Below are positions 46,224 through 53,478 of a DNA stretch of 64,000 nt, one piece after another (position 1 is the first letter of the stretch; each line of letters begins with the position of its first letter). The stretch is from Flavobacteriales bacterium (GTDB lineage Bacteria; Bacteroidota; Bacteroidia; UBA10329). A program made the position numbers and the translations under genes. The DNA is taken from assembly GCA_021739695.1 (NCBI GenBank), contig JAIPBM010000016.1:1-64000 (forward strand). The letters are read 5' to 3'. Under the pieces are notes generated by a model that was not told where the DNA came from, searched no databases, and worked only from the letters and a program-made list of their open reading frames with translations.

Positions 46224-46820
46224 GCTCGTTAGCCAATTAGATGATCGGGGAATTAGAAAAGCTGAAATTCTAACAAGCTAATTAGCTAACCGGCTGGTTA
46301 CGCTCCCAAAAAGCATCCTCCGCAAACGCGCAAAACGTGTTGTTGTTTGCTTCGAGGTTTCTGTCCTGCAACATGTTCGACATGAGCATTGTTGAGTTAA
46401 AATTTCAGTAATTATCCGAAATACAATCGCGTAGACTTCGTTTTGTTTAATATTTGGATTGTTGAAATTCAAATGAACGTGGGCTTTTTCTTAAGAGGCC
46501 CATTCCAAATTAAAAACCGATTAAAACGGGATTAAAATCTAATTAAGATCGCGGTCAGGATGAGTTTCGCTACAATTACGCGCAATTCTCTTATCTAATT
46601 TCAACCTCTGATAAGCATAATTGGAAGTATGAAAAAGCGCGCGCATTACACCATTCCGACCTCGCGGGCTTTTTACGTCAGTTCTAACGATGTGCGCTTA
46701 GACTTCGTCACTTCGATAGCTCTGGTTCACACGTTTCTTGATGGAGTTTCGATGATTCCGTCAAAAGTGCATGACAGGTTTTCGTACTGATACGAAGCTG
46801 TTCTCGGAAAAATATTAGAC
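46224..46820. other. Gene-poor AT-rich stretch with an SDR gene remnant
   Basis: About 600 bases with no secure gene. It contains the 14-codon SDR tail remnant (46298-46339) and the AT-rich part 46440-46570 (ATTAAAA, CTAATTAAG). A 53-codon frame at 46629-46790 (starts MKKRAHYTIPTSRAF) has an ATG but no clear ribosome site and no family; it lies 30 bases before the toroid-like gene and may be a leader or noise. No clear promoter for the block at 46.8 kb was found. Confidence 0.5.
46298..46339 (-). pseudogene. Displaced 3' end of an SDR reductase gene
   Basis: Read on the minus strand this gives HVLRVCGGCFLGA and a stop, against QVLRVCGGSFLGA at the C-terminus of the intact SDR gene (52243-52284). 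The two 42-base pieces differ at 5 positions, three of them silent. The frame is lost immediately upstream. It is either the remnant of a second SDR copy or the displaced end left by an insertion event. Confidence 0.65.
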
Positions 46821-47669
46821 ATGAAATCAAGGACAATGTCACTCCTACTGGGAGTGTTACTCACCGCGGTGGTTTTTCGTTTGGAGGCTCAGCATGCTGG
46901 CAATACGAATGGAAATTCAGCTTTAAACGAGAAGATATCGAATTCCATTCGTAAAGGTTTGGTGTTTCTGGCCGATACCTCTTACACGTTGGATTATGGG
47001 AGCTACGCGCTCATGCATTATGTAGAAAGGATTGCTGGCGAACCGATTGCCTTCGATAAGATAGAAGGACAGAAAAGGATTGCCAAAACCTATGCAGGAA
47101 AAGAGGTTGAAATGCAATTCTTCGGCAGGCTGATCGGTGAAACTGAACAGGCTCCAACTTGGAACGACATTAATGGACTAGTAAGCCAAGTGGATAGCAC
47201 CACACTTCAGGCACTTTGGAGTGATCGATTGAAACCACAGAAAAAAGCCTATTACGATTGGCTTGTGAAAATTTCGAAGAAAGGAGGCTACGAACTGACC
47301 CATGCCTTATTGGCCTGCCAATGGTTGGAAGAGACAGGGTATGTGGATGGACAAACGGACGAGGAGTTTGCAAAGACCAAAAGATACTTGGCTTCCGAAG
47401 TAAGAGCAGAAATCCTAAGCAAGGTCTCTTTTTGGGGAGATATTGAGATTGAATCGGTTGCCCTTCTCTTGTATGTTGGTGAGCAGTCTTCTGTTAAGCA
47501 AGAATGGATAAAGGCCATTCTCAAAGCTCAACGTGCCGATGGAAGTTGGGCCATTGATTCAGAACAGAACTCATCTGTACCGCATGCCACGGCATTGGCC
47601 ATTTGGGCACTTAAGCAATACAGTATGAGTGTGGAGTCCCACATTTCTTGGATTCAACCAGAACATTAA
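46821..47669 (+). CDS. Exported alpha/alpha-toroid-like protein
   Basis: A 282-residue protein with signal peptide (RLEAQ). Helical repeats throughout end in the terpenoid-cyclase-type repeat KAQRADGSWAIDSEQ...PHATALAIWALKQY, near residues 235-268. It lacks DxDD or other catalytic motifs. In style it resembles the protein at 34007. It starts the accessory block and stops 12 bases before the giant secreted-protein gene, so the two should be co-transcribed and may work together at the cell surface. Confidence 0.6.
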   Translation: MKSRTMSLLLGVLLTAVVFRLEAQHAGNTNGNSALNEKISNSIRKGLVFLADTSYTLDYGSYALMHYVERIAGEPIAFDKIEGQKRIAKTYAGKEVEMQFFGRLIGETEQAPTWNDINGLVSQVDSTTLQALWSDRLKPQKKAYYDWLVKISKKGGYELTHALLACQWLEETGYVDGQTDEEFAKTKRYLASEVRAEILSKVSFWGDIEIESVALLLYVGEQSSVKQEWIKAILKAQRADGSWAIDSEQNSSVPHATALAIWALKQYSMSVESHISWIQPEH

Positions 47670-47681
47670 AACACGTAGGTC

Positions 47682-50600
47682 ATGATTTTCAGTTCTAAAT
47701 TCAAGATTGTTTTTCTGGTCATTTCGTTCCTCTCTCTTGTTTATGGAGAAGGAATTGCGCAAAACATAACCTACAAGGCCCGCGTAGATCAGCTACAAGG
47801 GGCTGAGTGCGGAGATTGTGTTTTCTGTGGTGGGCCAGACAATCATTGGTATGTGGCCATCAGAGATAATAATGCAAGTACCAGCAACAGTATATGGGAT
47901 TACTATAGAGGTGATGATGATTGCGGTTGGAGAAATTATTCAAACGCGAACTGGAGAACAGCTACCAATGCAGCTTATGGAACCAGTGTCATTGCAAGTA
48001 TGACAGCATTTGAGGATGATGGCGGTAGTTGGGGTGGAGGAAACGATGCAAGTTGTGGTTCTTCTTATCTTGATATCAACACGGTCAACATCACTAACGA
48101 TGCACCCTGCAATTGGAAGCAATACACAGGAACCAGAAGTTGCGGTGGGGATCAAACATGGGGAGTTCGTTGGTCCATCTATTGGGAATACAATCAAGCG
48201 CCAACGCTCACTTCGCCAACTCCACTTAATCAACTTAAGTGTCAAGGAACCACAGCCACTGCCTTAACTGTTACGTCTGATGCAGATGGTAATGGAAGAA
48301 GCATGGCCAGATGGCGCAAATGGCAGATAGCAAGTACTGCAAGCGGTCCTTGGACCGACATTTCAGGCACACAGAATGCCACTGTTAATACAGCTACTAC
48401 AACACTCAGCTACACGCCTGCTCAGATCAGTGGCACGAGGTATTACCGATGCTTGGCAACCAGTAGTTGTTCTGCCGATTTCACTTCATTGACTTCAATA
48501 TCATCAGTTTATACCGTAACCTATGCCTTCAATACATCAGGCGCATTTGGCGGAGGCGATGTTGCTCCGGCTATTCAATCTGGAGTTTGTGGAAGCACGA
48601 TTCTCCCATCGCAGGTCATCACTTTCAATACGCTGAACAGCAATGCGGTCGCAGGTTCAGCCTTGAACAATTCATTTGCTTGGACAGCCACTGGTGGGTC
48701 TCCAACATCTGGCACGGCCAATAACCTTGTTTGGACCGCCCCAACCACTGCTGGAACATATACCATCAGTCTGACCTATAATTATTCGCCAGTTTGTGCT
48801 TCTCCGGTCACACTTACATGTGTCGTCACAGTGGGTTCGCCTAATTGTAATTATGCTTACGTAGCACCAGGAGGAACAAACACTACAACCTCAGGTGGAC
48901 CAAGCAATCCGTATGCGACCATTGCCTATGCCATTTCTCAGTTGGGCAGTAGAGATTATATACGTGTTGCGGAAGGCACCATCAATGAAACTTCCATTAT
49001 CAACATTCCAACTGGAATAACCATAGAAGGTGGTTATGTGGTTACAGCAGGAAATTGGGTAAAAAGCTTTGATGGTGTATCTGATAAAACCACTGTTAAC
49101 GGACCTAGTGCAGTAGAGACCATCACAAGTGTTTCTCCGAACGTTTGCCACACGGCAACATTTAAGGCGGTTGGAGTAACCAACTGGAAATTGATAGACC
49201 TAACGGTTCGGTCTGCCAACGCCAGTGGAACAGCAGCAAGCATGGGTTGCAGTAGTTATGGTATTTACATGAGCAATACCAGTGGCTACAACGTTGTCCG
49301 CTGCGATATAAAAGCTGGAAATGGAGCTTCTGGAACAGCTGGTGCTGCCGGCTCCACTGGTCATACTGGAGGAAATGGTGGTGCAGGGCAATCCGCTTCT
49401 TGTGGAGATGGGGCTAAAACAGGAGGAAGTGGCGGAAATGGTGGCTCCAATGCTTGGGGAAACAACGGAGGAAATGGTGGAAAGGGCGGTAATTCGGTCA
49501 GTAATGGAGGAGGGACCAATGCAGGCGCAGCTGGAACGGCAGGCGTTGGTGGAACGGCAGGTACACTTGGTGCAGCGGGAACAAACGGAGGTGGTAACTG
49601 TGGTACTAACTCAACAGGTGGCAATGCAGGAGCTGGTGGCGGTTATACAACCACCACTGTTAGTACAAGTGGTATAAACGGGGGAACGGCTGCAGTTACT
49701 CATACTTATGGCGCTTGGTACACACCAAGTGGTGTAGGGTCTCAAGGAGGGCATGGTAATTCCGGTGGTGGAGGTGGTGGCGGTGGCGCCAGTCGCGGAC
49801 AGAGTGGGTCATTCATCAGTTGTGTTTCCAATGGTGGAAATGCAGGTGGTGGCGGAGGTCAAGGTGGCGGAGGTGGAGAAGGTGGAGATGGTGGCTATGG
49901 TGGTGGTGGTAGTTTCGGTATCTACCGAACCAGCAATGCTGCCACAGGTACATTCACCGATATGACAGCAGCATCAGGAACTGGCGGTGCAGGAGGCGCA
50001 GGCGGAACTGGTGGAAATGGCGGTCCTGGTGGAAGCGCTGGAAATGGACCAAGTGATTGTTCTGGTGAACGCGGCAACGCAGGTGATGGTGGTGTCGGTG
50101 GAGCAGGTGCTAAAGGTGGAAGTGGACAAACGGGTGCTGCAGGTGCCACAGCGGTTATGTATACTCAAGGAACGGGTGCTTCCGATCCTTCTACCTCTAT
50201 TCCAACAACGCCAATGTTGAAAATACTGACCAACAATACCAGCTATTGCAGGAATAGCGTCATCACGCTTGATAGAACATCCGGGTCTGGAAACTGGAGC
50301 TTCAGTAATGCGAATATGGATTATGTCGATAACCTCACATCAACCACAGGAACCAATAGCGCAACTTCTGACCCGGTAAATGTTTTCACCGCTGTTGGAG
50401 GGATCAATACAGACATCACTGTGGGAGTCGAAACCTACACAAGAGGTTTGGAAATTGAAGGAACTGCAAGGTCACTTCCAAGTTTGTCGTTGGATTATTC
50501 GACCATCTGCGTTGGTGGTTCGGTCACAGCTTCGTTCACCGAAACTGGATATTCTCAATCAAATGTGGATTATATCTGGGAAGTATTTAGTGGAACGCAA

Positions 50601-52154
50601 GCAAGCGGAACGGTGGTTTTCAGTTCAAATCTTCCTTCACCTTCTTTTGGGCCTTTCAATACGAATGGAACATATACTATTCGATTCCAAGTAAAGGAGA
50701 TCTGCTGTGGATGGAGTATTCCTCGTTTTACTACGCTTACTGTTAATGCCGATCCAACAGCTCCTACCAACATCACATTCAGTTCTCCGGCCTCTGGTGC
50801 TGAGATCTGCGTGGGATCTACTGTTTCTGTGAGCGGAACTTCGGGTGGAACTGGAGGATTTTCTCCTTACACCTACGAATATGTATATGATAATGGAGCT
50901 GGTTTTGGAACATACAGCACTGGCCTACCATCGTTTGCAGCTCAAGAAGGAGCTAATGAAGTGAAGGTCAGAATTCAGGAAAACCTTGCACGAGGTTGCG
51001 ATGCGTCTTCAGAATATGCTGAAACCATCACGGGTCGTCCAATACCTGTTGGCGTTGCTGGCCCTGCTTCGCAGGAAATCTGCAGCGGTCAAACGGCCGA
51101 CATCAGTTTTAATACAAGCAATGCCGTATCTGGAACAACATTCGCATGGACAAGGACAAACACAGGTTTGGTTACAGGTCTGGCAGCTAGCGGCACCGGA
51201 GATATTTCGGCAGCCTTGACAAGTTCTTCTGCTGTTGCACAAACCGTAACCTTCACAATAATACCTACAGGTCCTAGCCCGACTTCTTGTCCAGGAGCTT
51301 CGTTTACTTCTGTTGTTGTCGTAAATCCGAATCCGACTGCGAGCCCTACGAACAATGGTCCATTGTGCGAAGGAGCGACATTGGTACTGACAGGAGGTGC
51401 GTCTGCAGGAACTGCTCCATACACGTACGCATGGACAGGACCTAGTGGTTTTGTAGGCACTGGAAGTCCAAAAAGTAGAACCTTCAGTACAGTAGCTATG
51501 TCAGGTACGTATGATCTTACTGTTACAGATGATAAAGGATGCACAGCAACTGGAAGCACCGTGGTATCGATTGTGCTAGACCCGACCATTGGAACACAGC
51601 CTCTCGGAACAACCATTTGTGCTGGCGCATCTTACGGTATGAGTGTGATAGTGAACGATGGAATTGGTTTGAGCTATCAGTGGCAATACAGTACGGATGG
51701 TACCAATTGGTTCAGCGTAGGTGCAAATCTTCCTGTGTCGGGATTTTCTTACTCGGGGGCAAATACTGCGTCTATGACCATAAGCACAACGGTTGCAACC
51801 GCACCATCAGCCAATTATAGATACTGATGTTCGGTTGGAAGTGGAACGGGCTGCAATCCTAATCCGCTTATTACGTCTAGCGTAACGGTTAATGTGGTTC
51901 CGGCCAGCATCAGCAGTCCATTCAGAACTTGGACCGGCATGGTGTCTACCAGTTGGTTGAATCCTTTAAATTGGGATTGTGGTGGCGTGCCGACCACAAC
52001 CACAGACGTAATCATCCCGATCAGCGTAAGCACAGGAAACTATCCGATCATATTGAATGGAGAGGTGGGTGATTGTAGGACGATAGAAATTAAAGGTCCG
52101 CCCAGCGAAGTGGAAATTCAAGATGGGGGCACCTTAAATGTAGTAAGCCCATAG
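47682..52154 (+). CDS. Giant Gly-rich secreted beta-helix protein, split by an in-frame TGA
   Basis: The frame runs 1381 residues to TGA 51825-51827, then continues open in the same frame for 108 codons to a TAG at 52152-52154. The conserved pattern NYRY-stop-CSVGSGTGC shows the stop falls inside a repeat module (CGA to TGA would do it). In order: signal peptide (EGIAQ), an N-terminal Cys/Trp-rich domain, Ig-like modules, a right-handed beta-helix segment (GPSNPYATIAYAISQLG ... ITIEGGYVV), a Gly-rich insertion (residues about 545-830), then further Ig-like modules. The end (WTGMVSTSWLNPLNWDCGG) is a typical surface-protein module, but no T9SS tail follows. It is likely a surface matrix or adhesin, broken or read through. 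Confidence 0.75.
49320..50160 (+). repeat. Gly-rich coding repeat (GGNGG / GAGG type)
   Basis: Within the giant gene this stretch encodes imperfect short repeats such as GGNGGAG, GGSGGNGG, GGGGGGGGAS and GGAGGTGGNGGPGG, interrupted by ordinary beta-helix strands (SFGIYRTSNAATG). The insertion therefore seems to extend loops of the helix rather than replace it. The DNA is G-rich with GGTGG/GGAGG runs. Confidence 0.8.
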
Positions 52155-52189
52155 TATCAAGAGAAGACAAGGATTAAATGGACAATGAC

Positions 52190-52235
52190 AAACCTAAAGA
52201 GTCTAGAATATTCTAGATTCTTCAGGTTTTGTTTT
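52190..52235. terminator. Bidirectional terminator
   Basis: AAACCTAAAGAGTCTAGAAT (52190-52209) pairs with the following 20 bases (52210-52229) at 18 of 20 positions, with T's after it on the plus strand. It separates the giant gene from the convergent SDR gene. Confidence 0.75.
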
Positions 52236-52242
52236 TCATCCA

Positions 52243-53478
52243 TTATGCTCCCAAAAAGCTTCCTCCGCAAACACGCAACACTTGGCCGGTAATGGCTTCT
52301 GCACCAGGATGTGCTAGGAATGCCATTGCTTCTGCAATGTCTTCAGGTTTTCCAGCTTGGGCCAGGCTCGTTAAGCGTTCGGCAAATATTCTCGTCATCA
52401 GCGGCATGGTCTTCACCATATCTGTCTCAATGTAGCCCGGAGCAATGGCGTTGATGGTGATGCCTTTAGCTTTCAATTCTTTCGATTTTGCAGCGGAATA
52501 ACCGATCAAAGCGGCTTTGGTGGCCGTGTAATTCGTTTGTCCGAAGTTGCCTGCAATGCCAGAGATGGATGAAGTACTGATGATGCGTCCACCTTCGGGA
52601 ATCAATTCCATGGCAAGCGCATCTTCCGTTAGATTGATAACAGCTGTTAGGTTGATGGCAATCAATTGGTCCCAATAATGCTCGGGCATGTTCTTCAATG
52701 TTTTATCGCGGGTAATGCCAGCGTTGTTCACCAACACATCAATGCGTCCATGTTTTGCTTTAATGGTTTCGAGAAGATTCTTTCGAGCAGCTTCATCGGT
52801 TAGGTCTGCTCCTAAGAAGGAAACCTTGCTTGCATTGAGCGAAGTCGAAGTGTCATTTAAAAGCGACTTAGCGCGCTCTTCCATCTGCGGCATGTCTGCA
52901 ATAATGACTGTGGCACCTTCGGCAGCCAATCGCTTCACAGTAGCAGAACCGATTCCTCCAGCACCGCCAGTTACCACACAGATTTTCTCCGATAATTCTC
53001 TACCTGTTTTAGTTGAATTGTTTGCAGCAATCGCTTGTCCGGTAATGAACGCAGAACGGCCTGACGTGAAGAATTCCTGAATGGTTGCGTAGTTCTTCAG
53101 ATCCACATTCGGTGGAAGTTTGACCAAATTGACTGTGGTTCCTCTTCCGCCCAACTCTTTTGCCAACGAACGGCTAATTCCTTCTAGCGCTCGCTGATAG
53201 GTTGAGTGATGAACGCTTGCACTGAGCGAGGTCGAAGTGTCATCAAGCAACTCTGGCTGAATGGAATAGATCAGCACTTTTCCGTTTGAGTTCAGCGATT
53301 TTATGCCGTTTTGCAATTGATGGAAGATGGTTTTTAAACCCGAAGCATTTCCCACATTTCGACCATCAACGATGAGTGAGTCAGGCACAATCGTTGTCCC
53401 ATCTTTCCATGGTCCGTAGGTCTTATTTAAAACCGCTGGTGGCGGAAAACCGAATAGGGAGAGGATCTTTTCTTTCAT
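52243..53478 (-). CDS. Two-domain SDR, 3-oxoacyl-ACP reductase (FabG4-like)
   Basis: A 411-residue protein. The N-terminal about 170 residues are a degenerate Rossmann unit (LIVDGRNVGNASGLKTIFHQL). The C-terminal SDR has VTGGAGGIGSATVKRLAAEG, VLVNNAGITRD, and the active-site YTATKAALIGYSAAKSKELK with Tyr and Lys. This is the high-molecular-weight FabG layout. The C-terminus is QVLRVCGGSFLGA. Two nearly identical 28-base repeats (52829-52856, 53216-53243) lie in frame and both encode DTSTSLxAS. The ATG is followed closely upstream by a TAAAATTG element. Confidence 0.88.
   Translation of the reverse strand: MKEKILSLFGFPPPAVLNKTYGPWKDGTTIVPDSLIVDGRNVGNASGLKTIFHQLQNGIKSLNSNGKVLIYSIQPELLDDTSTSLSASVHHSTYQRALEGISRSLAKELGGRGTTVNLVKLPPNVDLKNYATIQEFFTSGRSAFITGQAIAANNSTKTGRELSEKICVVTGGAGGIGSATVKRLAAEGATVIIADMPQMEERAKSLLNDTSTSLNASKVSFLGADLTDEAARKNLLETIKAKHGRIDVLVNNAGITRDKTLKNMPEHYWDQLIAINLTAVINLTEDALAMELIPEGGRIISTSSISGIAGNFGQTNYTATKAALIGYSAAKSKELKAKGITINAIAPGYIETDMVKTMPLMTRIFAERLTSLAQAGKPEDIAEAMAFLAHPGAEAITGQVLRVCGGSFLGA
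52829..52856 (-). repeat. In-frame palindromic repeat, copy in C-terminal SDR domain
   Basis: 28 bases, 26 identical to 53216-53243 and exactly 387 bases (129 codons) away, in the same frame. It encodes DTSTSLNAS in the loop after MEERAKSLL, where SDRs normally have a short linker. It is absent from the usual family pattern, so it looks inserted. Confidence 0.75.
53216..53243 (-). repeat. In-frame palindromic repeat, copy in N-terminal SDR domain
   Basis: The second copy encodes DTSTSLSAS after QPELLD. The core ACTGAGCGAGGTCGAAGT matches the style of CACTGAG...CGAAGTG repeats common between genes in this group. Confidence 0.75.

Follow-up and report, generated by a model that had tools for sequence, protein, structure and literature searches.

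An in-frame TGA in the gene of a giant secreted Flavobacteriales protein, a probable recent nonsense allele ahead of a recurrent C-terminal module

A gene for a secreted multi-repeat protein of about 1490 residues, lying in the 64,000-nt stretch of DNA analysed here (the window), carries an in-frame TGA at 51825-51827 on the plus strand. On balance the TGA probably arose by a real nonsense substitution, of recent date and confined to this genome, that would truncate the product and leave the copy at least partly non-functional. Translation of 47682-52154 (plus strand) yields 1381 residues, the TGA, a further 108 residues and a TAG at 52152-52154. Both the stop within a giant secreted protein and the 108-codon continuation behind it, claimed in a sequence-only reading of the window, are thus borne out, the continuation being homologous to a paralog in the same genome. 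The genome is a 4.24 Mb assembly in 53 contigs, 98.49% complete with 0.16% contamination.

The reading frame and its relatives

The coding part ahead of the stop (47682-51824, plus strand, 1381 aa) has a hydrophobic N-terminus that by eye resembles a signal peptide, a Gly-rich region, and PKD_5 and Ig-like repeats. Twelve nt upstream lies a gene on the same strand (46821-47669, 282 aa), probably in a common operon, whose product shows a weak, below-cut-off resemblance to the squalene-hopene cyclase N-terminal family. The open codons behind the TGA (51828-52151, plus strand) are conserved with the paralog and with homologues, and the TAG that closes them is probably the natural stop, since it places the protein end exactly where the paralog on contig C2 and the homologue from genome G011 end; the homologue from G007 is 8 residues longer. 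A terminator-like palindrome at 52190-52229 (plus strand) folds far better than shuffled sequences (z -5.3) and is placed as expected for a terminator of the second stop, the TAG, not of the first.

When the 324 nt between the two stops were shuffled 20,000 times by mononucleotide, only 0.15% of the shuffles kept this frame open, so its openness exceeds chance; in the actual sequence the remaining two frames of the plus strand contain 10 and 6 stops. The 108 residues find eight matches in the genome itself and align with the paralog at 65% identity (E 2.6e-36), so that the stretch is to be regarded as coding. A separate second gene behind the TGA was considered and rejected: the first in-frame start is a GTG at 51894 and elsewhere the stretch forms the C-terminus of longer proteins.

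Searching the genome with the pre-stop protein gives 12 matches including itself, and none of the other 11 has an internal stop. The best of these relatives, encoded on contig C2, has both parts in one ORF of 1400 aa. The segment around the stop has matches in 26 of the 59 genomes searched and, among the matches listed, only the present gene is interrupted; the closest of these are G011:C32 (64% identity), the paralog on C2 (62%) and G007:C67 (58%). Among named records, the two nearest homologues come from assembled metagenomes labelled Bacteroidetes bacterium and Flavobacteriales bacterium. In the C2, G011:C32 and G007:C67 sequences the column of the TGA holds Arg, encoded by three different codons. 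Among 403 related repeats, Arg occupies 224 of the 319 ungapped cells of that column and Gln 59. The Arg column supports the proposal in the sequence-only reading that a nonsense substitution took place, with CGA, its simplest precursor in that reading, as one possible starting codon.

Conservation does not fall off behind the stop. Identities before and after it are 66 and 62% with G011, 58 and 65% with C2, and 58 and 59% with G007. At columns invariant in these three relatives, the gene differs at 6 of 39 before the stop and 3 of 44 after it; the same test applied to each relative in turn over the post-stop part gives differences at 10 of 51 (G011), 5 of 46 (C2) and 11 of 52 (G007). At the level of these alignments, then, selection shows no sign of having relaxed behind the TGA, and a stretch free of decay implies that the stop is either recent or not real. 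The age of the stop is resolvable only to this 'no visible decay', and dN/dS dating fails, since synonymous sites are at or near saturation (dS to homologues undefined in four of six comparisons and 1.8-2.5 in the remaining two).

A homologous frame that is intact but for one in-frame stop, a stop missing from both paralog and relatives, is found here as in nonsense-inactivated genes. The likeness to a nonsense allele or early pseudogene in a paralogous pair extends to the single premature stop, the intact paralog and the conserved remainder; no difference was seen, the present candidate being recognised from its sequence.

The position of the stop in the protein can be judged from an AlphaFold2 model of the 193-aa read-through segment. 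Residues 1-110 form an Ig-like domain (pLDDT 82-97 over ten-residue blocks), and the matches listed by Foldseek are Ig folds. This is the last Ig-like domain of the protein, encoded by 51573 to about 51902 (plus strand), and the TGA, at residue 85 of the model, falls within the strand of residues 79-90 and ahead of the last strand, 104-109. The C-terminal module in the same model has pLDDT below 50 and so carries no structural information. A first model (277 aa, three sequences) had a mean pLDDT of 34 and was unusable; the alignment for the second was made without five module-only rows that are misaligned in A4. The sequence-only reading had the continued frame completing a recognisable surface module. 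Such a module, with the residues WTG..NWDCGG, is indeed present, but it lies entirely behind the TGA (51918-52151), and the element that the stop interrupts is the preceding Ig-like repeat.

The course of events that we propose would begin with a nonsense substitution in one gene of the paralogous pair. Termination by RF2 at the TGA would then give a product of 1381 residues, lacking the whole C-terminal module. As judged from the model, its final Ig-like domain would also be without its last strand and the latter half of the strand in which the TGA falls. As the chain would end mid-domain, inside a strand, its folding should be impaired; the end of the product would probably fold poorly, the role of the module would be lost and the copy would no longer be fully functional, if functional at all. 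The paralog on C2 is intact.

Sequence error, readthrough and switching as alternatives

The main alternative, to which we give appreciably less credence, is that the TGA is an error of base calling, assembly or consensus, or a minority allele fixed by the consensus, and that the real gene is intact with about 1490 codons. Conservation behind the stop that equals that before it, together with an intact natural end, is what would be expected under such an error; the genome is, moreover, an assembly of 53 contigs, and a single-base error would give the same picture. Against it, the lack of a stop in the other 11 matches within the genome gives no sign of a noisy assembly, although this is a weak test, and polished assemblies contain few substitution errors. 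Of the three options offered by the sequence-only reading, a newly broken gene, as we prefer, fits best, and a wrong read comes next.

That the TGA is decoded often enough to be of use, through recoding, a suppressor tRNA or selenocysteine, with a short form and a long, module-bearing form both being made, is improbable. The conserved frame behind the stop would suit it, and TGA is described as the leakiest stop in E. coli in passages of PMC11126739, but the TGA is kept in neither the paralog nor the homologues. Of the 38 large ORFs in the window, 13 terminate in TGA, the present one among them, and RF2 is found with 478.3 bits against a cut-off of 370, the opposite of an alternative code in which TGA is unused as a stop and RF2 is lost. 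The best SelB match in the genome scores 191.6 bits, below the cut-off of 242.25; this match, in a 398-aa frame, is probably EF-Tu. None of the 34 tRNAs found has a UCA anticodon (150 of 266 candidates scored). Folding just behind the TGA is no better than that of shuffled sequences (z -0.08 for the 60 nt from the TGA, and +0.55). On these tests of SelB, tRNA, RF2, TGA usage and hairpins, we reject selenocysteine, a suppressor tRNA and a reassigned TGA. The base directly 3' of the TGA is T, and according to the same passages of PMC11126739 a T after the stop raises termination in E. coli reporters, while TGA readthrough in E. coli inserts mostly Trp, not the Arg of the relatives. Low background readthrough of the TGA is possible.

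Still less probable, to the point of being hardly tenable, is that the TGA belongs to a switch, whether phase-variable or at the level of the population, since there is no tandem repeat at 51500-52200 and no second copy of the TGA site within the window, the nearest paralog has only 62% protein identity over the segment, and a point substitution is no known phase switch. Phase variation driven by repeats is rejected, as no repeat is present at the site. With SelB below cut-off, no UCA tRNA, no repeat, no unusual hairpin and no stop in relatives, the suggestion in the sequence-only reading of a stop that is read through or phase-variable finds no backing.

What could speak for a switch is the setting of the gene. 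Two 42-nt direct copies (88% identical), at 46298-46339 and 52243-52284, correspond to the 3' end of a short-chain dehydrogenase gene and are the only two found genome-wide. They flank the two-gene unit 46821-52154, which thus sits between the intact dehydrogenase gene and a second copy of its 3' end. Given these flanking copies, the unit may have moved, having been inserted between them. A further direct repeat, of 29 nt (93%), is present in a dehydrogenase ORF at 52828-52856 and 53215-53243.

The C-terminal module

The part lost behind the Ig-like domain is a module of about 80 aa with the pattern WTG..NWDCGG..DVIIP..LxVxxP (here 78 aa, 51918-52151, plus strand), which also forms the C-terminal end of several other giant proteins. 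A profile built from 11 terminal copies (A3) has no convincing match in Pfam or NCBIfam, the best being E 0.0037 and for one member, and a keyword search of open-licence papers found no report of it. The genome itself has 12 module matches. Five are at the extreme C-terminus, all in giant proteins (contigs C16, the present gene, C2, C28, C11 and C13); for another five (C9, C12, C7 twice and C6) the frame agrees in contig, strand and length with one bearing a tail of type A, as known from the type IX secretion system (T9SS); one of the remaining two is at a contig edge and the other on C3. Internal copies in this genus often run on to a type A tail: in the 13 that were read to a stop and, by eye, end in such a tail, the module is followed by 450-471 residues, the tail included.

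Nine genomes figure in the genus search and 295 in the class search, 37 of these at E of at most 1e-12. Terminal copies beyond those in the profile are G006:C256 and G001:C451 in the genus and, in the class, one each in G155 and G230 and two each in G185 and G074, the module being terminal in 7 of 30 rows when G011 is included. Counting matches read to their ends, there are at least 19 terminal copies, 5 in this genome and 14 elsewhere, in families f1, f4, f35, f55 and f65. The module stops 0-3 residues from the protein end in 18 of the 19; in G007:C67, 8 residues follow it. Among the five proteins of this genome all ten pairs of modules match (E < 0.01), and the parts ahead of the module are related between C16 and C2 and between C11 and C13, and over 67 aa between C16 and C28.

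The natural stop is TAG in all five of these genes (L011, L012, L013, L017 and L043), TAG ending 6 of the 38 large ORFs of the window; common descent or chance may account for this. The first six terminal copies examined from other genomes all end in TAA, and among further ones TAG, TGA and TAA are all represented.

Comparison with T9SS tails and meaning of the loss

Type A, B and C T9SS tails are described in parts of PMC10202324, and types A and B in parts of PMC12618676. The protein studied resembles type A cargo (Por_Secre_tail, TIGR04183 / PF18962) in being a giant secreted multi-domain Bacteroidota protein that ends in a conserved domain of about 80 aa, and the module sits where type A tails usually do. 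It differs in that the lost module matches neither the type A models nor a type A profile: the TIGR04183 and TIGR04131 models find nothing in the 11 module sequences, and hhalign gives a probability of 0.2% between the module and the type A tail profile. No type B tail (TIGR04131 / PF13585) is recognised on the module either. Gly-rich relatives in the same genome, on C4 and C30, do have a type A tail, and at least 150 matches to this tail were counted genome-wide (all 150 scored of 291 candidates), from which the organism appears to rely heavily on T9SS. This wealth of Bacteroidota-type tails, together with the labels of the nearest named homologues, points to a member of the Bacteroidota.

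The module is not confined to protein ends. Chain D of PDB 8gl6, which we take to be RemA, the gliding adhesin of Flavobacterium johnsoniae, has one copy at residues 890-960 (E 2.3e-10). There it lies inside the chain, with about 476 residues still to follow, whereas in the present protein it is the C-terminus. The name RemA for the 8gl6 protein appears in part of PMC12618676.

By comparison of sequences, the module appears to stand in place of a type A T9SS tail on partly unrelated cargo in five families. A conserved end on differing cargo resembles sorting domains, which makes it a candidate surface-sorting module; it could equally well be a plain structural end cap. That the TGA removes a so far undescribed module by which giant Bacteroidota proteins are sorted or anchored through their C-terminus is a tentative proposal, and one we consider doubtful.

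Taken by itself, the TGA concerns one member of a gene pair, either broken or mis-called, and has no general consequence. A little more weight comes from the part that is lost, as this C-terminal module recurs and neither Pfam nor NCBIfam has a family for it. If sorting or anchoring is indeed its role, the TGA allele would make its protein a natural 'no-address' mutant. Were the module a signal for secretion or surface attachment, it would represent a new class beside the T9SS tails, with cargo that current annotation misses.
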